Assembly (NCBI GenBank): GCA_016098155.1
Contig: JAAAJB010000009.1
Coordinates: 1,400-65,399, forward strand
Source: Actinomortierella ambigua
Taxonomy: Eukaryota; Mortierellomycota; Mortierellomycetes; Mortierellales; Mortierellaceae
Direction: 5' to 3'
Length of the DNA stretch: 64,000 nucleotides
Shown one piece after another: positions 1,501 to 59,177 of the stretch (position 1 is the first letter of the stretch; each line of letters begins with the position of its first letter). Position numbers and translations under genes: made by a program. Below the pieces are notes generated by a model. The model did no database searches. It was not told where the DNA came from and saw nothing but the letters and a program-made list of their open reading frames with translations.

Positions 1501-4500
1501 ATGATGGCAGAATCATACCTCTGCCATGTCGGCTCTGTCCTGGATCTGTTGATCTCGGACAAGGCTATGGACCCAATCTCGTTATCATTCACCTCACACT
1601 TCCCACTACCTCTTGACTATGCAGACTCTGCATCCCATCCTCTCATTCAAAAGGTGGACACCGCGTTGCAAAAGGTGGTCCAAAAGATGCTGCTCCTCGA
1701 GCAAGAACTTGCTCGTGTACGTCATGAGACGGGCGTCGTCAAGGCAGCTGGCCCAGCCAATGCATTGCTGACAGACATTGGAATGGCGCCTCCCATTCTC
1801 ACTCCACCAGTCGACGCTCTCTCACCGTCGATTTCGGCGACCACGCGATGGGGCGAAGGCTCCTGGTTTGTCAACCACACGGCGTCCTTCAACTCGGTTC
1901 AGGAACGGCCTCCACTGCCATCCATCTCGAGTGCTATTTCCGAGTCTTCAAACTCGTCCGAGGACTTTCACACGCCCCTCGGCACGACTCCCGTTCATTA
2001 TGACCTTGCTTCCACATCTCAAGATACCACTGCCATCACTGCCGCCGCCGCCACCACCATCGCTTCCCCCTTCGCTTCTCGTACTCCCCTTGCTGTGCCG
2101 GCGACGGCGTTCTCTGTAGGTTCTTTGTCTGCTCCCTTTGCTCCATTGCATGCCAACGGCGTTTCTGATGGCATCAGGGAGGCACACGCCCAGGCACCAA
2201 CCGTACCACTCGCATCAATGATGAACCCTTCCCTGATGACATGCTTCCCGCCTATCATCAATGGTCAGGGATCTGCTGGCAACATTAGTAGCCCTCTGCA
2301 CACATTTTCCTCTTCGTCTTCGTCCTCCCTGCCCTCCTCAATAGTCTCCTCCTCTGCATCATCGGCAACATCCAACACTGCAGCATTATCAACAACAACA
2401 ACAACAAGAGCAAAGCAAGATCGTCGCCCCTGTCAGACATGCATACAAAGCTGCGCCAATATTGCTGCTGCCGTCATCACAGGCGACCTCTCAGGCCGCG
2501 TCTTGTGTGGTAGTCCAGAATGTCAAGGATCGGACCTGATAATCTCCATCAATGACATGGTCGGTAAGCTGTCAAGGTTCACCCAAGAGGTCATCGAGGT
2601 CGCTGCTCAAGGGGTCGAAGGCAAACTAGGCGTGCAGGCTGGCGTGGAAGGAGAGCGTGGCATCTGGAAGGAGTTTATCAGCCATCTCAACTCTATGACG
2701 GCGTCGCATTCAGAGCAGGTGCGCGATATTGCATCCGTCTGCACGGCTGTCGCGCATGGTGACCTGTCCCAAAAGATCACCGTGTCGGTGAAGGGCGAGA
2801 CCTTGGTTCTCAAGAACACAATCAACACGATGGGTAAGTTTATTGCTCTCTTTTCAAAAAGAGTCAGGCATGTTGCATTCGATGAGCATGAAGTGGGCCA
2901 CAAAACACATACACACATACACACACACAAAAGAGTCGAGAGCTGGCTTGCTTTGCTTTGCCTTTTTTTTCGCTTTGCTTCCCTTTTTTTTTTGTTCCCT
3001 TTCTTTCTTCCCTTTGTTCGTTTGTTCGTTCGTTCGTGTTTTTTCTTTTCTTTTCTTTCTCTCTTTGGCATGGCTGATGGGGAAGAGAAAGATGTAAGGG
3101 GTCGGGGTGGGGTCACACAGGCACACGTTTTGCGTGTGCAAGAGCGACTGAGGTTCCAACCTCTTACACCCTCCCTCCCCTCTGTCCTCTCTTTCACTCT
3201 CACCCTTGTACACGCACATTTCGTACACGCACGCTAGATAAACACCGCACTCGCATACACTCTTTCCCTCCTATGGCAACATTTTGGGGATCGCAGCCTT
3301 TTCGTGGTCTTCCCTTTTGCTGTTGGGCCCTTTCTCGGGCTCTCTATACCATTTTTCTTCTTCTTCCTTTTGTGTGTATTTGTCCTATCCCCTGTCACAC
3401 ATGCGTTGCGTGTTGCCTTTTAGACCACCCATCTCCGCCAGCACTCGTCTTTTGCCTTGTCTGCATGCACCCACCCCTTCCCTTCCGCTTTCTTCTCTTA
3501 TTGCAAAGTCGCAAAACACTGCAGGGGGAACGAAAAAATCAGCGAGACGATGGGAGCTCATCCAGACACACGCACACAAAAGTGCTGCATAGGGCTGGAC
3601 AGGCCTTGAAGGCTGTCGGGGAGAAGGGTGGGGGATGTGGGGAAGGAAGGGGAGCAGGGAACGCATTATGGAGAAACACGCTGCAAGCTGGTGCCTCTTG
3701 CGGTACTTGATTTAGGCTGATATTAACATACTCTCTCTCTTATCTTGCTCCAACCCAACATTACTTGCTTCTTTCTGGCCGCTGTTTTTGCGCAATGTCA
3801 TGTCACGGCTGCGTCGTTGCCTGGTTCTTGTATACCGCCTTACTGCTTTGTCGTCTGCTCTCGGGTCCTGACTATCGCCACTGTATTTGTCATGGTCGTA
3901 TGCTGGAAATGTTGTTCTCACTGTCCATCTCTTTCCTCTGGCCCCTTCTTTTTTTCACTCTCTCCGCTCTGCCTGCACTCCCGCACGCGCCCTCTCTTCT
4001 CTCTCTGTCTCTGTCTCTTCGTCTCTGTTTTCTCTCTCTCTCTCTCTCTCTCTCTCTTTTCCCCCCCTTCCTCCTCCGCCCCCCTCTCTCACTCCAATGT
4101 TCGCTGCCCTCGTACCTGTCATGTGTGTGGTTTGTTTTCGATGCTCTTTCGCCGTGCCCACTTGCACCACACACACTCTATCCACCATCACCCCTCGTTT
4201 GTCCCTCTATTCACGCTCACTCTCTCCCCCTCTCTTCTCTCCCCTCTTTACTCCCTTGCATCATTGTTTACCCTACACAACCTTTTATCATGCAATCTCG
4301 GTTTGGGTTGGGTGCTGCTGGTGGTGGTGGTGGTGTTGGTAACTGGGTTGCGGTATCCTATTTTATACTATCGTGATATGCAGTCGATCAGCTGCGATCC
4401 TTCTCCTCCGAGGTGACGCGAGTGGCCCATGAAGTCGGGACAGAGGGCAAGCTCGGCGGCCAGGCATATGTGAAGGGTGTCGATGGCACGTGGAAGGAGT

Positions 4501-7500
4501 TGACCGACAACGTCAACACGATGGCCGCCAATCTGACGGCTCAAGTGCGCGACATTGCAAGTGTGAGTAAGGCAATTGTGAAGGGCGACTTGAGTAAGAA
4601 GATCTCAGTGGAGGTGAAGGGCGAGATGCACGATTTGAAGCACACGATCAACACGATGGTGGACCAGTTGCAGGAGTTTGCCCTCGAAGTGAGTCGAGTC
4701 TCGCTAGAGGTCGGTACGGAGGGCAAGCTTGGTGGGCAGGCCCATGTCAAGGATGTCAGTGGCACGTGGAAGGAGTTGACGGACAATGTCAATCTGATGG
4801 CATCGAACCTGACGACCCAAGTAAGAGACATTGCGACGGTGTGCAAGGCCGTCGCGTGTGGTGATTTGACCAAGAAGATTGATGTGCAGGCCCAGGGCGA
4901 GATCCTGGAGCTCAAGGTGACGATGAATACGATGGTCGACCAGCTGCGTACGTTTGCCGCCGAGGTCACACGTGTCGCTCGTGAGGTCGGAACGGAGGGC
5001 AAGCTTGGTGGTCAGGCCGAGGTCGAGGGCGTCGATGGTACATGGAAGGAGCTGACGGACAACGTCAACACCATGGCCGCGAACCTGACAGCCCAGGTGC
5101 GTGATATTGCCAGTGTCAGTAAGGCTGTCGCTGCAGGAGATCTCAGCAAAAAAGTCACCGTCGAGGTCAAGGGTGAGATGTTGGATCTCAAGCATACCAT
5201 CAACATCATGGTCGACCAATTGCAAGAATTTGCAACAGAGGTGACGCGTGTATCCCTAGAAGTCGGTACGGAAGGCAAGCTAGGTGGCCAAGCTGTTGTC
5301 AAGGATGTCTCGGGTACCTGGAAGGAGCTCACGGACAATGTCAACACCATGGCCGCCAATCTAACCACACAAGTGCGTTCGATTGCCGAAGTCACAACAG
5401 CTGTCGCCTGTGGTGATCTCAGCAAGACGATCGATGTCCAGGCCCAAGGTGAGATCTCCGAACTGAAACTCACGGTGAACTCGATGGTGGAGCAACTCCG
5501 CACGTTCGCAGCTGAGGTCACCCGTGTCGCTCGTGAGGTCGGTACGGAAGGTCGTCTCGGAGGCCAGGCTCTTGTGAAAGGTGTCGACGGCACGTGGAAG
5601 GAGCTCACAGACAATGTCAACACCATGGCCGCCAACCTGACAGCCCAAGTCAGGGACATTGCTGGCGTTTCAAAGGCCGTCGCAGCAGGTGACCTAAGTA
5701 AAAAGATTTCCGTGGAGGTCAAGGGTGAGATGTTGGATCTCAAGAATACGATCAACATCATGGTGGACCAGCTGCAAGAATTCGCCACAGAGGTCAGTCG
5801 AGTGTCGCTAGAAGTCGGTACTGAGGGCAAACTCGGTGGTCAGGCCGTTGTCAAGGACGTTTCTGGTACCTGGAAGGAACTCACGGACAACGTCAACACG
5901 ATGGCTGCTAACCTGACCACACAGGTGCGTTCGATTGCTGAAGTTACAACGGCTGTCGCTTGTGGTGACCTGAGTAAGACGATCGATGTCCAGGCCCAAG
6001 GTGAGATCTCGGAGCTAAAGCTCACGGTGAACTCGATGGTAGAGCAGCTCCGCACGTTCGCCGCCGAGGTCACCCGTGTCGCTCGTGAGGTCGGTACCGA
6101 GGGCAAGCTGGGAGGTCAAGCCCAAGTCAAGGGCGTTGACGGTACCTGGAAAGAGCTCACAGACAATGTCAACACCATGGCTGCCAACTTGACGGCCCAG
6201 GTGCGTGATATTGCCGGAGTGTCCAAGGCTGTCGCTCGTGGTGATCTGACGCAGAAGATTTCGGTTGACGCGAAGGGAGAGATCCTGGAACTGAAGAACA
6301 CAATCAATATCATGGTAAGTCGCAAGGAGGGGCTCCAATGGATACAAGGTTTTCTTTTTTGTTTTGTTTTGTCCAAACATTCCTATCGCCATTTTCACGT
6401 GATTAGGAGATGACACACACTCAATCTACTATCTTTGCGCAACGTTCAATACTTGTAGGTGGACCAACTCTCTACGTTCTCGGCTGAAGTCACCCGCGTG
6501 GCCCGTGAGGTCGGCACAGAAGGCAAACTCGGAGGTCAGGCCGTGGTGAAGGATGTCTCTGGTACCTGGAAGGAGCTGACGGACAATGTCAACACCATGG
6601 CTTCAAATCTAACCACACAAGTACGCTCGATCGCCGAAGTCACCACAGCTGTCGCCTGTGGTGACTTGAGTAAGACAATTGACGTTCAGGCTCAGGGCGA
6701 GATTTCCGAGTTGAAGCTGACGGTGAACTCGATGGTGGAACAACTCCGTACGTTTGCCGCAGAGGTGACGCGTGTCGCTCGCGAGGTCGGAACCGAAGGT
6801 CGTCTTGGCGGTCAGGCTCAAGTCAAGGGCGTCGATGGCACTTGGAAGGAGCTCACGGACAATGTCAACACCATGGCCGCCAACCTAACAGCCCAGGTCA
6901 GAGATATTGCCGATGTCAGTAAGGCCATCGCCCGTGGCGATCTTAGCAAGAAGGTGACGATTGAGGTCAAGGGTGAGATGCTGGACCTGAAGCACACGAT
7001 CAACATCATGGTGGACCAGCTACAGGAGTTTGCCACGGAGGTCAGTCGAGTGTCGCTAGAAGTCGGCACCGAGGGCAAGCTTGGTGGCCAGGCTGTCGTT
7101 AAGGATGTCTCCGGCACGTGGAAGGAACTCACGGACAACGTCAACACCATGGCAGCCAACTTGACCACGCAGGTGCGTTCGATTGCCGAAGTCACGACGG
7201 CTGTCGCATGTGGTGACTTGAGTAAGAAGATTGATGTTGAGGCCCAGGGCGAGATTTCGGAGCTCAAGCGCACGGTGAACTCGATGGTGGAGCAGCTGCG
7301 TACGTTCGCCGCTGAAGTGACCCGTGTCGCTCGTGAGGTCGGTACCGAGGGTCGTCTTGGTGGCCAGGCCGAGGTCGAAGATGTTGGTGGTACCTGGCGA
7401 GAGCTGACGGAGAACGTCAACACGATGGCAGCCAACTTGACAGCCCAGGTCAGAGATATTGCCGACGTCAGTAAAGCCATTGCTCGCGGCGATCTTAGCA

Positions 7501-10500
7501 AGAAGGTCACGGTCAACGTCAAGGGCGAGATACTCGATCTGAAGAACACGATCAACTCGATGGTGGACCAGCTTCAAGAGTTTGCTACCGAGGTCAGTCG
7601 TGTCGCCCGTGAAGTTGGTACCGAGGGCAAGCTTGGTGGTCAAGCTCTTGTCAAGGGTGTCGACGGCACGTGGAAGGAACTGACGGACAATGTCAACACG
7701 ATGGCGTCAAATCTAACCACGCAGGTCAGAGATATAGCCGATGTCAGTAAGGCTGTCGCCAAGGGTGACTTGACGAAAAAGGTCACTGTGAACGTCAAGG
7801 GTGAGATGATGGACCTGAAGCACACGATAAACACGATGGTCGACCAGCTACAGGAATTTGCCACCGAAGTCACGCGCGTGTCTCTCGAGGTCGGTACTCA
7901 GGGCAGGCTTGGAGGCCAGGCCAACGTCAAGGGTGTCGATGGCACGTGGAAGGAGCTGACCGACAACGTCAACACGATGGCAGCCAATCTAACGACCCAG
8001 GTGCGCTCTATAGCCGAAGTCACGACCGCTGTCGCCTGTGGTGACCTGAGCAAGAAGATTGACGTGGAAGCCCAGGGTGAAATCTCAGAACTCAAGCTCA
8101 CGGTCAACTCGATGGTGGAACAGCTGCGTACGTTCGCCGCTGAGGTCACCCGTGTCGCTCGCGAGGTCGGAACTGAAGGCCGACTGGGCGGTCAGGCCGA
8201 GGTCGAGGGCGTTGACGGCACGTGGAAGGAGCTCACGGATGGTGTCAATACCATGGCTGCCAACCTGACAGCTCAGGTACGTGACATTGCCAGTGTCAGT
8301 AAAGCTGTCGCCGCTGGAGATCTCAGCAAGAAGGTCACCGTCGAGGTCAAGGGTGAGATGTTGGATCTCAAGCACACCATCAACACCATGGTGGACCAGT
8401 TGCAAGAGTTTGCCACGGAGGTCACACGAGTGTCGCTAGAAGTCGGTACGGAAGGCAAGCTCGGTGGCCAAGCCCTTGTCAGGGATGTTTCCGGCACGTG
8501 GAAGGAACTCACGGACAACGTCAACACCATGGCTTCTAACTTAACAACACAGGTGCGTTCCATTGCCGAAGTCACGACCGCTGTCGCTTGTGGTGACTTG
8601 AGTAAGAAGATCGACGTGGAGGCTGAGGGTGAGATCTCCGAGCTCAAGTTGACGGTGAACTCGATGGTGGAGCAACTGCGTACGTTCGCTGCCGAGGTCA
8701 CCCGTGTCGCGCGTGAGGTCGGCACCGAGGGCAAGCTCGGTGGACAGGCCGAGGTCGAAGGCGTCGGTGGTACGTGGAAGGAGCTCACGGACAACGTCAA
8801 CACGATGGCTGCCAACCTGACCACACAGGTGCGTTCGATTGCCGAAGTCACGACGGCCGTCGCCTGTGGTGATCTCAGCAAGACGATCGATGTCCAGGCC
8901 CAGGGCGAGATCTCAGAGCTCAAACTGACGGTCAACTCGATGGTGGAGCAACTCCGTATGTTTGCCGCTGAGGTCACCCGTGTCGCTCGCGAGGTCGGAA
9001 CCGAAGGTCGCCTCGGAGGCCAGGCTATTGTCAGGGGCGTTGACGGCACGTGGAAGGAGCTCACGGACGGTGTCAACACCATGGCTGCCAACCTAACAGC
9101 TCAAGTACGCGACATTGCCGATGTCAGTAAGGCCATCGCCCGTGGAGATCTCAGCAAGAAGGTCACTGTCGAAGTCAAGGGTGAGATGCTTGACCTGAAA
9201 CACACCATCAACACCATGGTGGACCAATTGCAAGAATTCGCCACTGAAGTCACTCGAGTGTCACTAGAAGTCGGTACGGAAGGCAAGCTTGGTGGTCAGG
9301 CTCTCGTCAAAGATGTTTCCGGCACGTGGAAGGAGTTGACCGACAACGTCAACACGATGGCCTCTAATCTAACAACACAGGTGCGCTCGATTGCCGAAGT
9401 CACGACCGCTGTCGCGTGCGGTGACTTGAGTAAGAAGATCGACGTGGAAGCTGAGGGCGAGATTTCGGAGCTCAAGCGCACGGTGAACTCGATGGTGGAG
9501 CAGTTGCGTACGTTCGCTGCTGAAGTCACTCGAGTCGCTCGCGAGGTCGGCACCGAAGGCAAGCTCGGTGGACAGGCCGAGGTCGAAGGCGTCGGTGGCA
9601 CGTGGAAGGAGCTCACGGACAACGTCAACACGATGGCTGCCAACCTGACCACACAGGTGCGTTCTATTGCCGAAGTCACGACGGCCGTCGCTTGTGGTGA
9701 TCTCAGCAAGACGATCGATGTCCAGGCTCAGGGCGAGATCTCGGAGCTCAAACTGACGGTCAACTCCATGGTGGAACAGCTTCGTATGTTTGCCGCCGAG
9801 GTCACCCGTGTCGCTCGCGAGGTCGGAACCGAAGGTCGTCTCGGAGGCCAGGCTATTGTCAGGGGCGTTGATGGCACGTGGAAGGAGCTCACGGACGGTG
9901 TCAATACCATGGCTGCCAACCTAACAGCTCAAGTACGCGACATTGCCGATGTCAGTAAGGCCATCGCCCGTGGAGATCTCAGTAAGAAGGTCACGGTGGA
10001 GGTCAAGGGTGAGATGCTTGATCTGAAACATACGATCAACACGATGGTCGACCAGCTACAGGAGTTTGCCACAGAGGTCAGTCGAGTGTCGCTAGAAGTC
10101 GGTACCGAGGGCAAGCTTGGTGGCCAGGCTGTCGTCAAGGATGTCTCCGGCACATGGAAGGAACTCACCGACAACGTCAACACCATGGCCTCCAATTTGA
10201 CTACACAAGTACGTTCGATTGCTGAGGTCACGACCGCCGTCGCCTGCGGTGACTTGAGTAAGACGATCGATGTCCAGGCCCAGGGTGAGATCTCAGAGCT
10301 CAAGCTGACGGTCAACTCGATGGTGGAGCAACTTCGTATGTTTGCTGCCGAGGTCACTCGTGTCGCTCGCGAGGTTGGGACCGAGGGTCGTCTCGGAGGC
10401 CAGGCTCTTGTCAGGGGCGTTGACGGCACGTGGAAGGAGCTCACGGACGGTGTCAATACCATGGCTGCCAATCTGACAGCTCAGGTACGTGACATTGCCA

Positions 10501-13387
10501 GTGTCAGTAAAGCTGTCGCCGCTGGAGATCTCAGCAAGAAGGTCACTGTCGAAGTCAAGGGTGAGATGCTTGACCTGAAACACACCATCAACACCATGGT
10601 GGACCAGTTGCAAGAGTTTGCCACGGAGGTCACACGAGTATCGCTAGAAGTCGGTACGGAAGGCAAGCTTGGTGGCCAGGCTCTCGTCAAAGATGTTTCC
10701 GGCACGTGGAAGGAACTCACGGACAACGTCAACACGATGGCTTCCAACCTGACAACACAGGTGCGTTCGATTGCCGAAGTCACAACAGCCGTCGCTTGCG
10801 GTGACTTGAGTAAGAAGATTGACGTCCAAGCCCAGGGCGAGATTTCAGAGCTCAAGTTGACGGTGAACTCGATGGTGGAGCAACTACGTACGTTCGCCGC
10901 CGAGGTCACTCGAGTTGCTCGTGAGGTCGGTACTGAGGGTCGTCTTGGTGGTCAGGCCGAGGTTGAGGGCGTTGGTGGTACGTGGAAGGAGCTCACGGAC
11001 AATGTCAACACCATGGCTGCCAATCTGACGGCACAGGTCAGGGATATTGCCGACGTCAGTAAGGCCATTGCCCGCGGAGATCTCAGCAAGAAGGTGACGG
11101 TCAACGTCAAGGGAGAAATACTCGATCTGAAGAACACGATCAACTCGATGGTGGACCAACTGTCGACCTTTGCCAACGAGGTCACCCGTGTCGCCCGTGA
11201 GGTCGGCACGGAGGGCAAGCTTGGTGTCCAGGCTCAGGTCAAGGATGTCCGTGGCACGTGGAAGGAGATCACGTCGAATGTCAACACGATGGCCGCCAAC
11301 TTGACGGCCCAGGTGCGCGCCTTTGCCTCGATCTCGTCTGCTGCTACAGATGGTGACTTCACCCAGTTCATCACGGTTGAAGCCTCAGGAGAGATGGACT
11401 CGCTCAAGACCAAGATCAACCAGATGGTGTACAACCTGCGTGAGAGTATCCAGAGGAACACCGCTGCCAGAGAGGCGGCCGAGTTGGCCAACCGCTCCAA
11501 GTCCGAGTTCCTGGCCAACATGTCGCACGAGATCCGGACGCCTATGAACGGTATCATTGGTATGACCTCCCTGACCCTGGAGACCGAGTTAACGCGTCAG
11601 CAGCGTGAGAACTTGGTCATTGTGAGCCAGCTGGCGCACTCCCTGTTGACGATCATTGACGACATTTTGGATATCTCAAAGAGTAAGTGAAAGACTGCAA
11701 GATTATGGAGCTCAAAGATATTATGGCGAAGATTTTTTTTTCTTTTGGGAGTAGAAAAGGCTGACTCTGATCACTGTTTTCACCTCATCACAACCATTTA
11801 GTCGAGGCAGGCAAGATGACCATCGAACAGGCACCGTTCTCACTGCGCACTCAGGCATTCGGTGTCCTCAAGACTCTGGCAATCAAGGCCCACCAGAAGA
11901 ACCTTGACCTCATCTACAACGTTCACAACGATTTCCCGGACCAGCTCATTGGTGATCCTCTGCGTCTGCGACAGGTTATTACCAACCTCATTGGTAATGC
12001 CATCAAGTTCACAACAGAAGGAAGCGTTGTCCTTGACTGCGTGTGCAAGAGTCGAACGGAAGTAGGCGTTGAGCTGCAGTTCTGTGTGTCCGACACAGGC
12101 ATTGGTATTCAGAGCGACAAGATTGAGGTTGTCTTTGACACGTTCTGTCAGGCAGATGGCTCGACCACGCGCAAGTACGGAGGCACAGGTCTCGGCTTGT
12201 CGATCTCGAAGCGTTTGGTAGCGCTGATGGGAGGCGACCTTTGGGTCAACAGTACGTTCGGCAAGGGCTCTCAGTTCTTCTTCACGGTGCGGTTCAACAC
12301 TGGTACCATGTCGCAGGAACAGATTGCGCTCAAGACCAAGCCGTACGTGGCACGCCATATCCTGTACATTGGGACGGTCAAGGAAGATGTGATTTCGAGC
12401 GCTGTCATGAAGACCCTGGAGAAGCTTAACTTTAAGGCGACGCACATCACTTCGCTGGAGCAAGCAGCAGCCCTTGTCCAGCCCATGGCAGGATCGGCGA
12501 CCGCCCAGGAGAAGTCGATGTTTGACATCATCATTGTGGACAACGTCAAGGACATTCGCAAGATCAAGGAGATCTTTATGCTCCGCTTCCTGCCCATTGT
12601 GCTGCTCTCGATGACGACGCCCTACATCAGTATGAAGGTCTGCCAAGATCTCGGCATTGCCAGCTACTTCAACCCGCCTGTGCAATTGCCGGACCTGATG
12701 AACTCATTGTTGCCGGCGTTTGAGTCGGCGTCGGCGCTGCCTACGGATGCGGAGCATGCGATCCCGCTGCACATTCTGTTGGCGGAGGACAACGTGGTGA
12801 ACCAGAAGCTTGCTGTACGTATTCTCGAGAAGTTTGGACACAAGGTGACGATTGTGGCGAACGGCAAGCTGGCGGTGGAGTACTTTAGCAACAAGCACTT
12901 TGATCTGATTCTTATGGATGTGCAGATGCCGATCATGGGAGGCTTTGAGGCAACACAGGAGATCCGAAAGATTGAGATGATGTCTGGCCGTAACGAGCAT
13001 TTGCCGATCATTGCTTTGACTGCACACGCCATGATTGGCGATCGGGAGAAGTGTCTCTCTGCTGGAATGGTAAGTCTATGATAAAGAAAAAGAAGAAGAT
13101 GAAGAAAAAAAAAAGAGGAAAAGGCCCTCCCTGCCCCTTTTGCTCTCCAAGACCCTCCTCTAATCACTCTTTCCTTGTTACACACGAATTAGGATGAGTA
13201 CATCACGAAACCTTTGCGGCCCAACGAGCTGATTGCGACAATCAACAAGTTCCCACCCAAGAACTGCCCAGATTTGGCCCAGAACGACTCGTTCTACGAA
13301 TATCATAATTTGCGATTGGGACAAAGCAACGCGACCGATGTCCAAGGGTCCTCTTCGACGTCGACATTTGGAAAGCCAAAGGCATAG
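1501..13387 (+). CDS. group III hybrid histidine kinase with 26 HAMP units
   Basis: Exons 1501-2833, 4384-6314, 6459-11682, 11802-13069 and 13193-13387 join in frame to about 3316 residues. Order: Ser-rich N terminus, a divergent HAMP unit at the exon 1 end, 25 well-conserved 92-residue HAMP/linker units, HisKA with [10 protein letters not shown] (phospho-His about residue 2778), HATPase with [15 protein letters not shown] and GGTGLGLSI, then a receiver with LMDVQMP (phospho-Asp about 3202) and YITKP. No transmembrane segment or signal peptide is seen, as in cytosolic Nik1/Os-1 kinases. In other fungi these kinases act above the HOG MAP-kinase relay in osmosensing and are the target of phenylpyrrole and dicarboximide fungicides. 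Family members usually carry about five to six such repeats in ~1300 residues, so this one is far longer. The start is chosen at ATG-ATG 1501 because the upstream frame is low complexity; 439 is an alternative. All catalytic motifs are intact. Confidence 0.93.
2834..4383 (+). other. 1.55-kb intron 1 of the kinase gene
   Basis: It begins GTAAGT after ATG-G and ends CAG before TC-GAT, restoring Met-Val-Asp-Gln across the junction. It is more than ten times longer than the gene's other introns (about 120-145 bases). It is filled with T-, CT- and CA-rich low-complexity DNA, including a perfect (CT)n at 4031-4058. No coding or RNA feature was recognised inside it on either strand. Confidence 0.85.
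4031..4058. repeat. (CT)n microsatellite
   Basis: About 13 to 14 uninterrupted TC/CT dinucleotides inside intron 1 of the kinase gene, near its 3' splice site. Confidence 0.9.
4410..11453 (+). repeat. coding tandem array of 276-bp HAMP units
   Basis: Units 2-8 begin at 4410 and repeat every 276 bases to intron 2 (6315-6458). Units 9-26 begin at 6486 and run with the same period to 11453 with no length change. Two classes mostly alternate. One has a [10 protein letters not shown] core, RDIA.VSKA and DLKHTIN. The other has [25 protein letters not shown] and [10 protein letters not shown]. Units 16-18 (8418-9245) and 19-21 (9246-10073) form an almost identical three-unit duplication. Confidence 0.95.
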
Positions 13388-33942: not shown

Positions 33943-36900
33943 CTATTTACTCGCGTCGTTGCTACGTGCGAAACACCATGGGCCCGTACGCGTTGTTGCA
34001 ACCACCTCCTGGGTGGTGGGGTGAATGAGCTCAAAGACAAAGACATATCCTGGATCCCTGAGCTCCTTGATCGCCTTATTGGCCTCAGCTTGCAACTTCG
34101 CCTTCCACTGTGGATCATATTCACTCGATCCTTGCTGCTGCAGCTGCGTCTGCACTTGCTCGCGCTCGCGCTTGATCGCCATGAACCGCTCCTTTTCGCG
34201 CTGCACCACTTGATGCATGCTGGAGCAACGGACTCGGCCCCTGACCTCACATCGGCCCTGACGCACCTCCACCACTCCACCATCCATCAATGGTGCTGGA
34301 TGCTGAGGATGGTCGGAAGACATCGGGATTCCAAACTGCAGCGCTGGGCTCCAGTCCACAGTCTTCATCATCGAGCGTGTAGGCGAGCTTCTGCCCTGTT
34401 CGTGCGACCTCTTGTTGCAGTCCTTGCAAGCACCGACGATCTTGACTCGACCACCTTCCCCTCCTTCCTGGGCTGCTGCTGCTGCTGCTGCTGCGGCATC
34501 ACGAGGACCGAGTTCAACAGAGCAACGGATGTCATACGTCATCTCGGACAGGAGCGATGGCGCCTTTCCGCTAATACGCTTGACCAGCTCGGGCGGGAAC
34601 CGAAGACCCAAGTACGAACTTGGCAGGACAAGACCCTCTGCCATCATCGCGTTAACCGTCAGATCAAAGTCAAACATAAAGTATTCGCCTGTTCGGAAGG
34701 GGCTGCTTGCCATCGCCGACTCGGTGGCACGCGAAGAGAAGGATGGGCCGCCGGCTGTAATCATAGCAGCCTTGGACGACGACGACGACGACGACGACAA
34801 CGATCCAGCAGTAGCGGCTTCCGAGCCTCCCAGCGCTGCGGCAACGGCCTTGGCAACCATGGTCGAGGTCGATGAAGGGCCAACCATGGTCGAGGTTGAC
34901 GAGGTTGACGAAGGGGCAGGCATGGCCGAGCTCGTTTCGAGGCATCGAAGCTGGACCTTCATCTCGATGCCTGTGGACGGGAGTTGCTGGCGATGCAGTT
35001 CCTTCAAGCGGGTTTGGACCTCGGAGATGACTCCGGAATGGTAGCCAGATTCTTGCTGCTCGGCCGTAGTTGCTGCACCTCCCACTGATCCAGATGCCTC
35101 ATCGGATGCGTCCCCTTGCTTGGAGGATGGGCCAACCGTCGACTCTGGATCGTCGACAAGCTGCTGTGACAAGATTGTCTTTGGTGACTGGACACCGTCC
35201 TGTTCATCAGTGACGTCCTCGAGCAAAGGTAAGCTCTGGTGGCGACGAGGTGACACAGCGGTAAGAACATGTAATCCTTCAAGCAGTCGTGGTAGACGTG
35301 ATACAATTGCTTCCTGGTTCACATCACTGTGGCTGTTGATGTCCGTAGCGCTAGCACCTACCAATGGCTGCGCAGTCTCCTCAGTCTTGACTTGAGCAGG
35401 ATGAGCAAGGCCTGGCAGCCATTGAGAGTACTCTTCAGGTTGATATCGTCCACAGGCCGTGGTCAAAAGGTTCAACATCTCAGGTGTCCGTTCTACTGTA
35501 CGTCCAAGTCTAGCGTAAAACTCTTCTGGTGTCTTGGCGCCACCTGCTGAGACGCCGGCTACGTGCGGCACATTGAGAAAAGATGGCAAAGTGTTTTTTT
35601 TTCAGGTCAGCCCATATTTCACCATTTGCAAACACATACTCTAGCCAGCACTCATCTTTTTTTTTCTTTTGAACAAACATCATACCTTGAACAAGGGCAT
35701 GAGCAACATCCGCTTGGTCCTTAAAGACGGCATACATCAAAGGCGTAAAGCCCCATCGATCACGCGCCTCAATCTCACAGCCAAGCGAAACAAGCTCAAT
35801 GGCAAGGCGAGCAAAGCCCATCAAGATGCTCAGATGAAGCAAGTTGCTGCCATCCTCCAGTTGCATGGAGATATCAATATCCGTCGGCAGGTGCTCAATC
35901 GTCTTGAGCAGTCCTTGCTCGACCTGCTCCAGTGTCAACGGGCGTTGTTCAGAGCTCTGGGATTGGGTCGGATATCCATCGCTCGCGGCCTGAGCATCAG
36001 CAGCAGCAGCATCAGAAGCATCGGCATCAGCATCAGCAACATTAGAATGCGTTGTAGCTCCTGGCGAACCTCCACTGCCTGAGGGCGACGACAGATGAGC
36101 TGGGATGCTTCGAAGAATATCTGTCGCGGTACCATGCTGGCCTGTCGCCTGCGCATGCAAATACTCGAGGGCACGGTGGGCCATACGCAACTGCAGTTGC
36201 AGGATCAACAGCTCAGTCTCGTTGTCGTCGGTGTAGGTGAACTCGGCAAGGTTGGTGTAGCTCGTGCCAACACCCTCACAGATGGTCACGGGGACTGTAC
36301 CAGGCAACGGGCTCTCGGGGGCTCGGCACAGCAGGAGGGCCGAGGTCTCGACGACAATGTCGCTCGCAGGGAAGCATCCAAAGTACGGCACCATGCCCGC
36401 ACGGAAGGACTGTCCGCGGATCGCGACATGGGTCACCTTGCGGATGGGACCTTGGTTAGGACGGATTTCGATGATGGATGGACTTGCAGGTGCTGCAGAG
36501 ACAGGGGAGAGGCCAGCGGTGGTTGACGGCGTTGGCGGCATCAGTGTTGAGCCAAGATGTGAGGCGACATAATCATCCAACGATGGGGTTTGTTGTTGTG
36601 GTTGAGGGGTGGTGCGCGAGAGGGCATCGGGAAACAGTGGGAGCAGAGACGAAGGCGAATGTGCATCCTGATTCATCATGCGAGCGTCCAGCATCGATGG
36701 AGTTAGAGCGAGCGAGGTGGGGTAGGTGGATGGGCTGTAGGCCATTGGCCCAGGTGTCGCGTGCTCTGAGGGAGTGTCACTATCGGTGACGAAATGCGGC
36801 GGGGACACGCTACCGTCGGGAGTCTTGCGGTGCTTAATGACCTTGGTCTTGGGTGTCGGCGTGCCTCTGTTGGCCTTCTCCACGCGTTGGTCCACCAAGA

Positions 36901-37906
36901 GCCGCTTGGCTTTGTGGTGCCCGGAGCACATCACAGGCGTTGTGGTGCATGTCGCCAAAATCTCCCCACCGTTCATCTCGCTGTCGTCAGACACCTCGCC
37001 AAGGCCAGGGGACAGTGACGAGCGCATGCTACTAGATGAAGCACTATTGCGCTTGACTCGAAATTCAAAAATGTACTTGTCCTTATTGCCTCGCTCACTG
37101 TGGTCTGTGGAGGAGCAGATGACTTTTGCCAACAGCGTCAGGGAGCCCGTGTAGATGTCGATATGAGAGTACATAGCAGGGTCCGTTGGTGAGGGGGAGA
37201 GCGGGTCGAGAAGGAGGAGGATCGGTGATGAAGGTCCATACTATGTGATATTTCATGGAAAATTTAGAACATTGCGACACACGGTAAGAAAAAAAAAGCA
37301 GTGTTGGACGCATGCCAGCTAAGACTTGCATTTCCGCGCTTGCGCAAAAGAAAAGGATTGTTGGGTCTTCTGGGAAAGAGAGAGAGGGAAAAAAGGGGGG
37401 CCTCCAAGTTTGTTGCTTGTACAGATTAGGAAACTTACTTTGTGGCAGCATTTCGCGCAAGCGCCGCGTCGCACTTGTCCACTTTTTTCCAATCGGACTA
37501 TAATCTCGAGAGTGAGAGCCTCCGACTCTGACGCAGGCTCGCCAGAAGTGTTGATGGCGTTGCGTCGTTCAAGACGCATTGCTGGGAACTCTGTGGCATG
37601 ACTACCATCGGCCCGAAGGAACTGGAGCTTGATGAGAAACTGCTGGCCTGTTCGTACTTCCTCGACCGACCGTGCTGGAGCCTTGTAGCCAGGCGTTGAT
37701 AGTTCGTCGATTTGGTCTTTCTTTTGAATGATACGCGCATCGAGCTTGTAGCCTGATGGAGGGGTCTTTATAGTACAAAGTCGGGAAGGGAAGGGAACGG
37801 AAGAGGGAGGGAAAAGGAGAGACGCACACACACACATACAAACACAGAAAGAGACGGAGAGAGGGAGAGAGAGAGACAGAGTGAGAGTGAGAGACAGGGT
37901 GAGGGT

Positions 37907-52421: not shown

Positions 52422-55400
52422 ATGTTTGGCATCAAGAGGATAAAGCAACCCCAGACATCAAAGACCTCCAACAGAAGCGATGTAGAGGATACTGTTCTCA
52501 ACTGGGATGACCATCAAAAGGAGTTTCTCGGAGCAAGCCACGTGGATTTCACTCGATCTCAGCGGAACAGCCAATACTTCCTGCCACAGCAACAGCAACA
52601 AATTCAGCAACAAATCCAGCTTCAACTTCAACAGCAGCAGCAGCAGCAGCAGTCGTTCCAGCTTCAACAGCAGCAACAACAACAACAGCAGCAGCAGCAG
52701 TCATTCCAACATCAGCAGAAACAGCAGCACCCATACCAGCTTCAACAGCAACCGCAACCACCGCCACAACAGCCATTCCAGCATCAACAGCTCCATCAAC
52801 AACAACCTCAGATTGCGCTGAGTGGTCAGTATCTGCATCCTTCCACGCTCACAACGGCGATGCAGGCTTCCGGATTCGACTATCCCATGAGCAGTAGCAG
52901 CTTGGACGACGACGACGGCAATGAGACACCAGGGCTGTCGCTCCAACAGCAAAAGATGTTGAATCGCCAGTCGCAGTTCTATGCAGCAGACCCTCACAAA
53001 ACGACAAAGGAGTATCACATCAGTCAGGCTATTCAAGCCGTGCAGCTCCTCAAAGCTGCATCCAAGCCGACAGGGTGGAAGAAGGTCATCAAGCACAAGT
53101 CAGGCTGTCTTGTCTCTCAATCGACATCCAATGCCGACAAGCACCCTGCTTTTAAGGGTGAGCATATCATTCGTGGATACCGTGCGCAGGACGTCTTTTC
53201 CATTGTCGGTGTCCGGAAGCTCTGGGAGTATGTCAATCAGCTCTTGCTGTGGTTATTATTTTCGCATGCATACAATATTCATAACCGTAGATGTTTCTTG
53301 TTATTTTTTTTTTTTGGTGTCGTCTGTGGAAGCATGCCAAAGTAACCCCGCATTTTGGGGTGCTAAATGCGCTCCAAGAAGCCATATCTAATCGCCTCTT
53401 TGTTTTGTTTGTCTTCTTTTAATTCCGCCTCCCGCGCCCCTCCTTGCTTTCTTTTTTACATTCTCGTTCGCTCCACGACCACACACAGCGACTGGTATGA
53501 CGAGCTGAACTGTGTAGAGTCCTATGATGACTCCACCTCCCTGATGTACATGGTTATGAAGGGCACCATGTCCTCCAAGTAAGTGACCTCCCTCTTCCCA
53601 CCCTCCGTGTTCCCCCCTTGTTTTCATCCCTTGTCTGTGTTCCGACGTTGGTGGTGTTTTGTATTTTTTTTTCTCCCATTCTTCGCCCCCTTTGCCATCT
53701 CCTGCGTTCGTCTTTTTTTTTCTGTGAGCCTCTCCCTTCTTTCGTCTTGCCTCCTTTCTCCTACTTTTTTTCCCCCTCCCCTCTTTCCCCACGACTGTAA
53801 TCTTGACCTCCCTGGCTTTCTCAAAATCCTGCCTCCTCCTTGCCCCATCACCCCCCGCCCCTTCTCGCCCTAACCACCCCGCACTTTCACCTATCCAACC
53901 ATCCAACTCATCTTGCCCCCCTTCATGCTCTTTATTCCCATCTTTCCTATTCTCTCTGACTGCCTTTGCTGATGTGCCATCCAACAACCCCCCTTCCCCT
54001 TCGTTCCACCCCCGGTGTCTCTATCCATTCATTAACGACCTGTTGCTATCGCCAATCCAAAATGTAACGATATCAACACCTTCCGTTCTTCTCCCCTTCC
54101 CCTAATGTTTGGCTCCTCCTTCTCGTTGTCCTCTTTCTCTTTGCCCTCTTTCACTCCCGCTCTAGAACAAGAGATGTGTCCATGGTCGAACGGATAGATG
54201 TCGAGAGTGACGGTACCATCTTTTTCGCGTCCTGTTCCGTCGAGTCCAACAAGATTCCAAAGGTGTCCGGCAAGGTGCGTGCCGACATCTTCATTGCTGG
54301 TTGGATCATCCAACCCCTGCCGTCCAATCCACCCATCACAAAAGTCACCTATGTTATCCAGACCGACCTCCTGAGCCGCCTGCCCAAGTTTATCGCACGA
54401 CGTTCGCTGGCCAAGCGAGCTCTCGTGATTACAACCATCGAGAGCCACCTCAAGAAGAACGGAATCCCGTTAGCCATCAACCATTTCACCTCACAGACGC
54501 ATCGCCATCGCAGCCTAAGCGAGCCCCTCCTGGCAGACAAGTCTCTCCTGGCGTCTGGCTCTGATGAGCAGCTGCAGCAGCAGTCTGGCTCCGCGTTCCT
54601 GTCTCCCCTGACAGGGTCAACAAGGCATGGCGGCGATGGCTCCGATCTGGACCCCGAGGAGCAAGGCTTGGAGCAGCTGGACGACGACCCCGAAGACTTG
54701 ACAGACGAAGACTTTCACAGTGCGACGATGTCTGCAGTCTCCCCTTCTTTCACCACCATGGACCACTCTGCATCGCGCAACTCACTTGCACCAAGCCTTA
54801 TGTCATCCAAGTCGCTTGCCCCCTCCATCTTCACCAACGAGTTTCTGGACAATAGCAACTTTTTGGGTGACCAAGCGCTCTTTGGCGACTCGTTGCTGTT
54901 TGGCAAAGGTGGCGTCTTTGAGAGCACGTTGAAGCAACAGCAGGATACTGTCGTTGCCCCTACACCGGCGACAACGTCGTCGATGGGACACGGTGGCGCT
55001 CCTGTGCCTGCTTCAACTCGGATTGACCATCGACGGTCTATTCTTGTCAGCACCAACCTGTACCAGCAGGGCAACGGGAGCTCCAATGCTCTATCGCACT
55101 ATCAACAACAACAGCGCCCACAGACAATACACCAGGCACAGTTGCATCAGCAGCAACAGCTACAATTGCAACAGCTGCAGTTGCAACAGCTGCAATACCA
55201 ACAGCAACAGCAACAGCAACAGCTAGTGGCGCATCGACCGCATCAGCACCAGGCCACCCTGCAGCCTCTTCCTTCACCTCCTGAGCATGGTTGCCCCTCG
55301 ACTTCTGCCGACTCTGAGCCCCCTAAGTTGCCAAGTGAGATGATGCCTCCGTCAAGCCCCATGAAGTCAAGGCGAGAGTCGCGCATGCTCTCAAGCCAGC

Positions 55401-58400
55401 AGAACCTTTCTCCGACACGGCACTCAATGCTCCTTGCTTCCCAATCCCCAGCGACACCACCACTCACACCAACTGCCTCGCTCGATGGCAAGGATACCCC
55501 GTCAGACTCTGATTCACTAACACCACCAAAGGTCGTTCTTCGCAAGCCAAAGCCCTCGATGCTCAACACGGAGAGCGCCAACAGCATGGCCGCTCGCCCG
55601 AGCTCGATGGCATTCTCGTCCCTTGGAATGCGTTCGCCCTCTGCCATGATGGATGCCCGCCGCCATAGTACTCTGATTGGCAGCCGGAGTTCGACCTTTG
55701 TTCCCCGCCATGCGGTTCCAATTCGGGGCAACCCGAACGTTTCGTTACATGGTCTGAGTCGCCCTTCGGGCTCAAATGGACAGCTCATGACAAATGCGTT
55801 CAAGCGTCATTCTACTGCTCCGAGCCTGGATTCAACGAGGTCTGCCACTACGCCATTCACGCCAATGATGGTCCTCCCCCATCGTCACTCAGAGACGGCT
55901 CGCAAGGCACTTGCCATGTTCAAGGTTCTTGCTTCCTCTCCTGAAGACCGCTGGCGTCAACTGTCAAATGAGGATGGCTTCAAGAGCTACAGTCGTATTA
56001 TCTCTGGTGCTGGGTTACCCATGTTGCGTGGTGAAGGAATCATCACTGGTGGGTGGACTGTTGAGCAGATTAACGCCGTTATTGAGAGCGCAGGATGCCG
56101 CCAAATCTGGGACGATCGGTTCGAAAACTTGTCGATTGCCGAAACCTTTAACCACAACGAGTATCTCTTCCACATCACCTTGAAGGGCATTGGCTCTCTT
56201 ACGTAAGTTGCATCGTCTACTGTGTTTACGCTCTCATATGGTGAATGGATGTGTAGGGTCTGTTCTCACCAAAACAATTTGAATATTTGCTCGATATCAT
56301 AGTGGACGAGACCTTGCAGGAGTGGCCATCATCGACCGCGACCCCCAGACGTCTACCCTGTACAATGTGTCGACCTCTGTCCTGGATCCAACAATTCCTG
56401 AGGATCCCGGTCGTATTCGTGCATTGTTGGAGTTTTCAGGTTGGTCGCTCAAGCCCACGTTTGATAACCAGGGCAACACGGTGTCGGTCGAGGTCACCTT
56501 TGTGATCCAGATTGACATTCGTGGAACTCTCCCCAACTCTGTTGTAAAGTCGATGACTTCGAGCATGACCATGGCGGTACAGCGCCTGAACCAGTTTATC
56601 AACAAGGTTGGCTACCCGCCATATGCATCCCATATTGCCGGTACTCGCCTGCTGGACACTTTTGATCCCAAGACTGGCTTCTACGAGCTGTGTTACAAGG
56701 CGGCACCAGGCTGGACGGAGGTCCGTGTTGGCCGTAAAGTCTACAAGGACGGCTATGACTTTTTCATCAAGCCGGATGACCCAACTGTGCGAGTAGAACT
56801 TGCACCAGATTTTGGTGGAGTGCGTGTTTGGACTACTCTGGACCATGAAGGCCAAAGTATCATAGCCCAAGTTACCCGCAAGGGCCAAGTCGCCGCCACA
56901 GCAGCGCCTGGCAAAGGTGACCGAGCCACCCCGGACCAAGAAGAGAACGACGAACACCAAGAATGCAAGCACAAGGGACCCGGCCCGGACCGCCAGCAAG
57001 GAGCGAGCAGCGGCTATGCTGCTGAGGGTAATGATGGTTCAGCGAGTGAGGCTGGGGCTTCGTCGTGTCTACGGCAGCAGAACGGGAGTTTTCCTAGCGG
57101 TGAGGACTCGTCCGCCGCAGCGTCTTCTTCGAAGCGCCATTCTGCCAGCCGTAAGCGAAGAAGCACCAGCTTCACAACCTTGAGCGCTTTCAGTCCTAAT
57201 GCTCTGTCTTCCTTTTCATCGCCCTCGAGTACTACGTCCCCTACTTCTCCCAGTTCTGGCTCTCCTTCTTGTTCTCCTTATTCTTCTGGTGCTGGTTGGT
57301 CCTTCTCAGGTTCTTCTTCATTTGGTACTGACGCTTCCCGCCCCGATTCCCAGGTCTCGGTCACGGGCGCATCCTCCCGAAGAACGTCACAAGGATCCGA
57401 GAGGAGTCGCTCTAGGGGCCGCCTCCCTCGCGGCGCGGTCCCGATCCCTCCTGCAGGATCGCCACAACCACCGTTGCCCCGCCGCTCCAGCTCCCTGACG
57501 CGGTATTCACTACCTCTGGCTCCCTATGTGGCCGAGGCCGACGCCCCTCCTGTTCCTCTCCCGATCACCAGCAACGTCCCGACGACCGGCCTTGCGTCGT
57601 CCCCAACTGCTTCCGAGTACAACCTACCATCCGTGTCTTCTCCTAGTACCGTCATCCCTGCTCGTGTTTCTTCCATTTGCTCTGCTCCTCTTCCTTCTAT
57701 TCCAGGCCATAGCAGCCAAACCCATGGTGCCAACGACGACTCTGTCTCCCCAACGACACAAGCCGAGATCAAGTCGGAGCCTCTGCCCTCGTTGACCAAT
57801 ATACCCGCTGCCTCTGCGTCGACGACTTGCCTGACCGCCATCGAGACCACTACGGCTCGTTCTGCCCCGGTAGCTACCGCTACTGCCACTGCTGCCACAT
57901 CCTCCTCTTCCCCTGCTTGTATTTCGACAGAGGCCACCGCAGTCCCACTCGCCATTGATACGACGTGCGTTCTTGCCACGACCGCCACTGCTGGCACTGG
58001 CGACGAAAACGACCAGTCATCATCTCAAGCGCCCCTTTCGCACTCGCCCACCTTGCCGCCTTCGCCCAAGGATCTGAGGAAGAAGCTAGATCTCGCCTTG
58101 GAGCAGCCCAGCTCGTCCGCGACGGTGGCCGTGATGGCGTTGACGGAGGAGCAGCAGGTCGAGATGATCTCGGCTGGAGGGCGTGAAGAAGAAGCCCTTG
58201 CCGAGTTGGCTCCTCCTCCTCCTCAGCTCCAAGAAAAGGTGCCTTCGCCCACCGGGCCGACTTTTGCCCCCGAGATTTCTGCCGATGACGAAGTGCTCCC
58301 CGTGGCTACGGCGACCTTGACCGAAAATGACACCGTTGTTGCCCCTGTTGTTGCCCCTGCTGTTGCTGCTGTCATCGTTGCTCCCACAACCTCGACTGCT

Positions 58401-59177
58401 TTGCCTGCCTCGAGCAGCCTCAAGTCTGTCTCTGGTACTCGCAAGCCACGCGATGTGCGCGTCACGTTCTCGTTGGACACGGTTGACAAGCCCTCAGCCT
58501 TGGATCAGGTTGCTGCCGATGCCACTGCGGCGGCTGCTGCTTCTGCCACCCCCGGAAGCTCTGCGACGGACGAGAGTGGCAATCGCTCGCCTTCGCTGCG
58601 CCGTGTGGGTATCATCAAGTCGGGCGTTGTCCAAGATCAGATGATTCGAGTGGGTGGTGGTGGTAATGGCTCAGACTCGGAGCCTCGCGTGATCAAGTCG
58701 ATTCTGCGCCGGCGCCCCAATGACGATGCGACGGTTGCTTCTCGAGAGATGGCCAGCAATGGCAGCAACAACAACCACGATGCCTTTACGATCAACAAGG
58801 TGGTGCGGTTGGAGGGCTATGAGAGTGACGAGGCCGAGTTTGTCGACTCTTTGGTGACCGCGTCCAGCAGCTCGAGCGAAGTAGCGGCTGCAACGGCTGT
58901 GTTGACAGCGGCTGCGGTGGCCATGGAGGTGGCGGTGATGGACCAGAAGAAGCAGCAGGCGGTGACCGAATGGGAACGTGCCAAGGCTGGGCTCTTTGCG
59001 TTGAACAGATCGTCGTCGGGCAATGAGGTCCTCGAGGCCCTGGTGGAGATTGCGGTTGTGTTTGTGAAGCATATGTCCCCTCTCCAGATCAAGCTGACGC
59101 TGGTTATGATGCTGATCGTGTACTACTTGCGCCATGTCGCCCCTTCTACGGCTGTTACGGGCGAGGTGGCACCCTAA
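52422..59177 (+). CDS. large double-START lipid-binding protein
   Basis: Exons 52422-53227, 53489-53578, 54166-56202 and 56303-59177 give about 1935 residues. A poly-Gln region occupies about 55-130. A START-like domain lies at about 195-405 (GWKKVIKHKSGCLV, KLWDDWYDELN, GWIIQPLPSNPP, VTYVIQTDL). A disordered Ser/Gln linker follows. A second START-like domain lies at about 873-1084 (WRQLSNEDGFKSYSR, GGWTVEQINAVIESAGCRQI, EVTFVIQIDIRGTLPNSVV). A short beta-rich segment reaches ~1165 (YELCYKAAPGWTEVRVG, VRVELAPDF). The next ~700 residues are Ser/Thr/Ala/Pro-rich. Near the end, LTLVMMLIVYYL at about 1905-1920 could be a C-terminal tail anchor. START domains bind sterols or phospholipids. A membrane-contact or lipid-sensing role is inference. 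The first START is split by two introns whose phases restore the fold. Confidence 0.85.

Follow-up and report, generated by a model that had tools for sequence, protein, structure and literature searches.

A long HAMP array behind a putative cysteine cap in a predicted group III hybrid histidine kinase of Actinomortierella ambigua

The kinase gene and its surroundings

The stretch of Actinomortierella ambigua DNA analysed here (64,000 nucleotides; hereafter the window) carries on its forward strand a five-exon gene (1501-13387). The gene encodes a hybrid histidine kinase of 3,316 residues, has no internal stop codon, and all four of its introns run from GT to AG. Exon 1 (1501-2833) contains the start, a low-complexity N-terminus, a degenerate half-HAMP (half-HAMP 0) and unit 1 of a long repeat array; units 2-8 are encoded by exon 2 (4384-6314) and units 9-26, together with most of the DHp (HisKA) domain, by exon 3 (6459-11682). 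The HisKA phospho-acceptor domain with its H-box was assigned by Pfam to 11496-11682. Exon 4 (11802-13069) covers HATPase_c (about 11951-12295) and the receiver domain (from about 12773), and exon 5 (13193-13387) the end of the receiver domain, the C-terminus and the stop codon. Intron 1 (2834-4383; 1,550 nt) interrupts the first codon of unit 2, and intron 2 (6315-6458; 144 nt) lies at the boundary of units 8 and 9; both introns within the array are placed at unit boundaries. Intron 1 is more than ten times as long as intron 2 and is largely pyrimidine-rich, as is the region upstream of the gene. The modelled start is supported by a Gryganskiella protein, P0035, whose N-terminus resembles the first residues of the window protein. 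A database protein of A. ambigua, P0126, is 100% identical over the searched region; it starts 22 residues later, carries one substitution and has one extra residue, differences confined to the part ahead of unit 1, and its 26 units are unchanged.

A Pfam domain scan of exons 1, 2 and 4 and the end of exon 3 (10599-11682), with units 9-23 outside its scope, gave HAMP, HAMP_2, HisKA, HATPase_c and Response_reg above cut-off. The conserved histidine, the N-box and the receiver aspartate were recognised by eye in the translation. One receiver domain accompanies HisKA and HATPase_c, as in group III (Nik1) kinases. No strongly hydrophobic stretch was found by hydropathy, the one measure used in place of a dedicated predictor (highest 19-residue Kyte-Doolittle mean, 1.64). 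The best relatives among the matches listed include a protein named NIK1 (P0127), with which the window kinase falls in the Mortierellales in a tree of the core, read without support values and including no short ascomycete Nik1. Judged from sequence, the gene belongs to the group III hybrid histidine kinases (Nik1/Os-1 type). The original prediction is supported in these points: a single Nik1-type hybrid kinase, no membrane segment, and a relay-type HAMP array.

Searching the genome (33.8 Mb, 846 contigs) with Pfam HAMP, where match counts are lower bounds, yielded at least 24 matches above cut-off (24 of 26 candidates scored), every one in this gene, which is the only HAMP-array kinase found by that profile search. 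HisKA matches number at least 11 on 10 contigs, this gene included, and HPt matches at least two. On contigs C246 and C429, where the HAMP search gave no match, HisKA is matched in open frames that are 2,443 and 2,410 residues long. Elsewhere in the window, two adjacent frames at 54176-59177 match the START domain, the first one above the Pfam cut-off and its neighbour below it; they are 27% identical over their first 107 residues and are possibly an old tandem pair. A frame on the reverse strand (35510-37174) has IPT/TIG and ankyrin domains, an architecture known from Mga2/Spt23-like regulators of fatty-acid desaturation.

Spacing, age and integrity of the array

A motif scan returned 26 units with a spacing of 92 residues in 25 of 25 cases, in agreement with the count originally given; the claim that every unit has kept its exact length is true of the window protein. 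Since one 92-residue repeat of CaNik1p corresponds to a HAMP pair (two concatenated HAMPs, according to the accessible text of PMC3848655), the array would amount to 52 HAMPs with the degenerate half-HAMP in front. Open stretches of 678 and 1,743 codons within it are beyond chance. The two terminal units are divergent. Unit 1 (2557-2832), in exon 1 upstream of intron 1, pairs at 84-86% with unit 1 of four of the five Mortierellales proteins compared, and unit 26 (11151-11426) is 95-96% identical to the last unit in five aligned Mortierellales proteins. At the protein level, units 17 and 18 (8667-9218) are identical to units 20 and 21 (9495-10046); the pairs 17/20 and 18/21, three units apart, show 15 nucleotide differences each and are among the closest pairs by pS.

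The longest exact repeat within 2557-11426 is 84 nt. Across the 276 pairs formed by the 24 interior units, the median pS was 0.64 versus a pN of 0.147, and the median dN/dS was 0.108 (259 pairs, leaving out 17 saturated ones). These values point to purifying selection acting on the interior units. The original prediction had allowed for an array expanded in assembly or largely spliced out of the transcript. The pS/pN pattern and the shortness of the exact repeats argue instead for an old, translated array: the 84-nt ceiling, the selection on the units and P0126 with its same 26 units all speak against an artefact. An artefactual origin was considered and, for these reasons, appears unlikely.

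A cysteine occupies column 67 in 12 of the 26 units (units 3-24, window 4659-10874), often at intervals of 184 residues. The same column holds a cysteine in 19 of 23 units of L. elongata AG-77 and in none of 17 in a partial Lobosporangium protein. In the unit lists behind the column-67 counts, the unit alignments and the motif counts, gap filling added no unit, and incomplete units at the edges were dropped; the unit numbers and spacings given below come from a count made without that step. Open frames of 272 residues lie opposite the array on the reverse strand (5012-5830 and 8273-9091) and are probably a by-product of its codon pattern.

Unit number and spacing among relatives

Three homologue searches, of which the best 120 of 7,995, of 7,996 and of 1,894 matches were taken, listed 237 different proteins, and their units were counted with an HMM built from those of the window protein. 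The sample is biased to long arrays by length filter and scoring and contains no ascomycete protein. Unit numbers were compared in 69 of the 77 fungal proteins, the window included, after dropping seven partial proteins and P0126, which represents the same locus. They range from 16 to 39: ten proteins have more than 26 units, four have 26 (counting the window) and 55 have fewer. Coemansia sp. RSA 986 has 39 units (5,388 residues), Mortierella alpina 30 and Linnemannia zychae 28; among the 161 listed proteins that are bacterial or unnamed, the range is 12-22. The view of 26 units as an outlier is not supported, ten listed fungal relatives having more and three others just as many. The comparison on which it was built holds in part: the accessible text of PMC3848655 does describe group III kinases with five to six repeats, but long arrays are found in many relatives. 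Given the length bias and the lack of ascomycetes, these counts show long arrays to be common in several lineages but say nothing for a rarity of short ones. The window gene is intact, and one of many long-array Nik1 kinases. A parity rule for unit number was also considered and is ruled out by the near-equal split in the 69 proteins (35 even, 34 odd).

Spacing is far more constant than number. In the 70 non-partial fungal proteins listed (seven partial ones omitted), 1,365 of 1,394 inner spacings are 92 residues, six are 93 and the other 23 range from 62 to 151; every inner spacing is 92 in 49 of the 70. The bacterial or unnamed proteins show an inner spacing of 92 in 1,783 of 1,789 cases and a first gap of 97 in 150 of 161. 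HMM start positions account in part for first gaps of 91 or 93, and the motif-based spacing of the window protein is 92 throughout. Some of the 23 odd inner spacings are near one and a half units. That arrays change by whole units only is not proven, as these 23 may include gene-model faults or part-unit changes.

None of the papers listed by the literature searches reported long arrays in early-diverging fungi, within a coverage that excluded figures and most subscription papers. Early-diverging fungi do possess group III kinases (PMC5285503), and HAMP is nowhere mentioned in the accessible text of that source, figures aside. For Myxococcus, the available part of PMC4603909 records that a poly-HAMP tract has expanded or contracted between species.

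Unit classes and their order in Mortierellales

Units of the window protein resemble one another more at lag 2 (84.4%) than at lag 1 (71.5%), a difference that widens in M. claussenii (89.8 versus 71.2%) and in the partial Lobosporangium protein (94.9 versus 69.3%); it is small or absent in the Linnemannia proteins and thus strong in only some Mortierellales. Two classes of unit, A and B, can be told apart in both halves of the unit. M. claussenii and Gryganskiella have units that match unit 22 at 100% identity, and Lobosporangium has one that matches unit 6 at 97%. Units 17 and 20 combine an A front with a B rear by admittedly crude labels, and their nearest counterparts outside the window protein are Linnemannia units; labelled in the same crude way, L. 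elongata AG-77 has 11 mixed units out of 23 and L. zychae 12 out of 28.

Proteins were aligned unit by unit with a gap cost of our own choosing. Against M. claussenii, units 1-12 pair with units 1-12 at 86-99%, units 13-15 with 14-16 and units 22-26 with 17-21, leaving window units 16-21 and M. claussenii unit 13 without partners. The ends and the order are thus kept, and the surplus is one interior block that includes the protein-identical pairs. The ends also pair with those of M. alpina and Entomortierella, except for unit 1 of M. alpina-b, with gaps more scattered; the pairing with L. elongata is looser. The named L. elongata proteins, in their gene models as deposited, differ from one another by gained or lost units amid units that are 100% identical. 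Unit numbers also vary between species, but the length-tunable sensor originally suggested is conjectural as regards any effect on function.

As a new lead, classes A and B are common to several Mortierellales genera, and the order of the units is largely kept. Homogenisation species by species is not favoured as the main origin of the classes, because some units are 97-100% identical across genera and synonymous differences within a protein are large. It nevertheless plays a part in Lobosporangium, where 16 of 17 units find their closest match within their own protein.

A cysteine motif in front of the array

The degenerate half-HAMP that precedes unit 1 is matched by an HMM of the rear half-units with an i-E of 9e-4. 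The same HMM finds something before unit 1, at an i-E of up to 1, in 57 of 68 listed fungal proteins; four residues of unit 1 lay inside the stretch searched, and in a few of the 57, whose proteins have truncated starts, the match is to a unit of the array itself. Five cysteines (C311, C314, C318, C336 and C341) cluster in half-HAMP 0 of the window protein (2431-2523, forward strand), where the motif C-x2-C-x13-G-x7-C lies at 2431-2508. Among the matches listed, the motif occurs in 63 of 70 non-Dikarya fungal proteins (a count in which the window and P0126 are one locus), in none of seven long Dikarya proteins and in none of the 161 other (bacterial or unnamed) proteins. Shuffling of the N-termini gave an expectation of 0.01 occurrences in 69. 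The seven non-Dikarya proteins without the motif comprise four that are partial or begin inside or near the array (P0206, P0015, P0059 and P0009), P0035, which is partial and lacks the first half, P0214, which keeps apparent remnants, and P0027, which has none. An additional cysteine or histidine follows within five residues of the motif, at no fixed place, in 61 of 62 motif proteins.

Of the four ligands that a metal or thiol site would call for at conserved spacing, the motif supplies three. The Pfam scan of exon 1 gave no family for the motif, and none of the papers listed by the literature searches showed one like it, again outside figures and most subscription papers. We propose, as a new lead, that the cysteines of half-HAMP 0 form a putative metal or thiol cap that feeds the rod described below. 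In Drk1 a HAMP cysteine, C392, perhaps at a corresponding place, affects the response to fludioxonil (accessible text of PMC6433957).

Structure and proposed signalling mechanism

Group III kinases work as cytosolic dimers, phosphorylating Ypd1 and holding Hog1 inactive. Phenylpyrrole fungicide action requires these kinases, and their stimulus is unsettled. In the solved chain 9trk_A ('histidine kinase,Gcn4p') the units have a relative that is 72% identical (113 of 158 residues; E 2e-79), a closeness that makes a HAMP fold very probable; the solved chain 9trj was also matched, and Aer2 (3vol) weakly (E 0.007). Stacking of the units, as helix-connector-helix elements, in a parallel dimer of the Aer2 type is putative. 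AlphaFold models of three units were poor, with a mean pLDDT of 43.6 alone and 49.5 with 20 rows taken from the window itself, and served for helix pattern and period only. Foldseek with the poor model gave no match at E<=0.001, the best being the Aer2 poly-HAMP 4i44 (E 0.029). The rod is therefore drawn from relatives.

Neighbouring HAMPs in a chain have been proposed to switch alternately (available text of PMC3570549). As far as the text of PMC3848655 is available, deletion of the HAMPs of CaNik1p activates Hog1, and DhNik1p becomes constitutively active on losing four of its five repeats; HAMP deletions are thus not uniform in effect. Fludioxonil turns Drk1 into a phosphatase, by the same accessible part of PMC6433957. 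With these precedents, the window kinase would form, as a cytosolic homodimer, a long rod made of the half-HAMP with its cysteine cap, 26 HAMP pairs and the DHp-ATPase-receiver core. Each HAMP would switch between two states of helix packing and hand the change on to its neighbour, the input would most likely come through the N-terminal cap, through strain along the rod or through both, and the core would feed the Ypd1-Ssk1-Hog1 relay and, as a group III trait, would confer sensitivity to fludioxonil. If each HAMP inverts the packing, a pair is neutral, so that gain or loss of a 92-residue unit would leave the phase and sign of the signal unchanged, and free drift in pair number would be expected; the 23 odd spacings may qualify this. 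Unit number could then drift by unequal exchange while both ends stay fixed. The dimer, the rod, the relay and the HOG output are carried over from the family by analogy; the sign neutrality of the unit and the sensing role of the cap we infer ourselves. We give a probability of roughly 0.7 to the reading as a whole, namely a group III kinase whose capped rod of 26 HAMP pairs relays helix packing to the core and whose unit number drifts between fixed ends.

What the cap does is a separate matter. A purely structural zinc knot, keeping the rod tip together without any part in sensing, stands somewhat short of even odds, and the extra cysteine or histidine soon after the motif in nearly all motif proteins is as in structural zinc sites. 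We hold it doubtful, but worth stating, that the rod of the non-Dikarya Nik1 kinases is a capped sensor, with the first half-HAMP turned into a metal or thiol cap whose state would be carried by sign-neutral HAMP pairs over ~100 nm to the kinase core; the column-67 cysteines of Mortierellaceae may add a redox response. The length is a rough estimate from the helix pattern of the poor model.

The array might alternatively be mainly a spacer or scaffold, for which any number above a few would work and 26 would have arisen by neutral unequal exchange. The spread of 16 to 39 units without parity bias and the L. elongata proteins with unmatched units amid identical ones are what such a scaffold would lead one to see. 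Purifying selection inside the units, a unit order largely kept between genera and the recurrence of long arrays in bacteria and in fungi of distant lineages speak against it, and we consider it rather unlikely.

Binding of DNA or a partner along the array, more than relaying, would follow the precedent of the Myxococcus xanthus poly-HAMP kinase AskB, which binds promoter DNA in vitro and has partial HTH_6 (PF01418) matches over its HAMPs (accessible text of PMC7643160). PF01418 also appears in the precomputed Pfam lists of P0126 and of P0231, an M. xanthus match, and exon 2, taken whole, scored 27.5 bits with Myb_DNA-bind_5, for which the cut-off is 21.7. No single Myb_DNA-bind_5 stretch passes by itself, however, PF01418 was absent from the scan of exons 1, 2 and 4 and the end of exon 3 (units 9-23 unscanned), and helical repeats attract partial matches, many unrelated helical families having matched too; we regard array-wide binding as improbable. 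Inflation of the array by assembly or splicing is conceivable in principle, as P0126 may not be an independent assembly, but has a next to negligible chance against the short exact repeats, a pN far below pS, 18 units within one open exon, the small differences of P0126 lying outside its identical array and a unit order common to other genera.

Arrays of up to 39 units raise the question of how far a conformational signal travels along HAMPs, a distance that could be tested with the natural range of 16 to 39 units. The conserved cysteine cap offers a concrete, mutable candidate for an input site in early-diverging fungi.

Comparison with known systems

The poly-HAMP of Aer2 (3LNR, 3VOL, 4I44) has a concatenated HAMP fold with alternating conformers, which the window kinase presumably shares, but it is a three-unit array in a chemoreceptor and its sequence match to the window units is weak (3VOL, E 0.007). 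Bacterial poly-HAMP hybrid kinases of the AskB type and 9trk/9trj share the 92-residue unit with the window kinase; the bacterial or unnamed proteins listed differ in having 12-22 units and no cysteine cap (0 of 161), against 26 units and a cap. The group III kinases CaNik1p, Os-1, Bos1, TcsC and Drk1 likewise combine N-terminal 92-residue repeats of HAMP pairs with a HisKA-HATPase_c-receiver core and have no transmembrane part; those described carry five to six repeats (PMC3848655, as far as its text is available), compared with 26 in the window kinase. The cap is absent from the seven long Dikarya proteins compared, a set without ascomycete sequences. The Nik1-like proteins P0124, P0127, P0134 and P0205 of Mortierellales, Mucorales and Kickxellales share the architecture and the cysteine motif and, with 26-39 units, differ from the window kinase in unit number.
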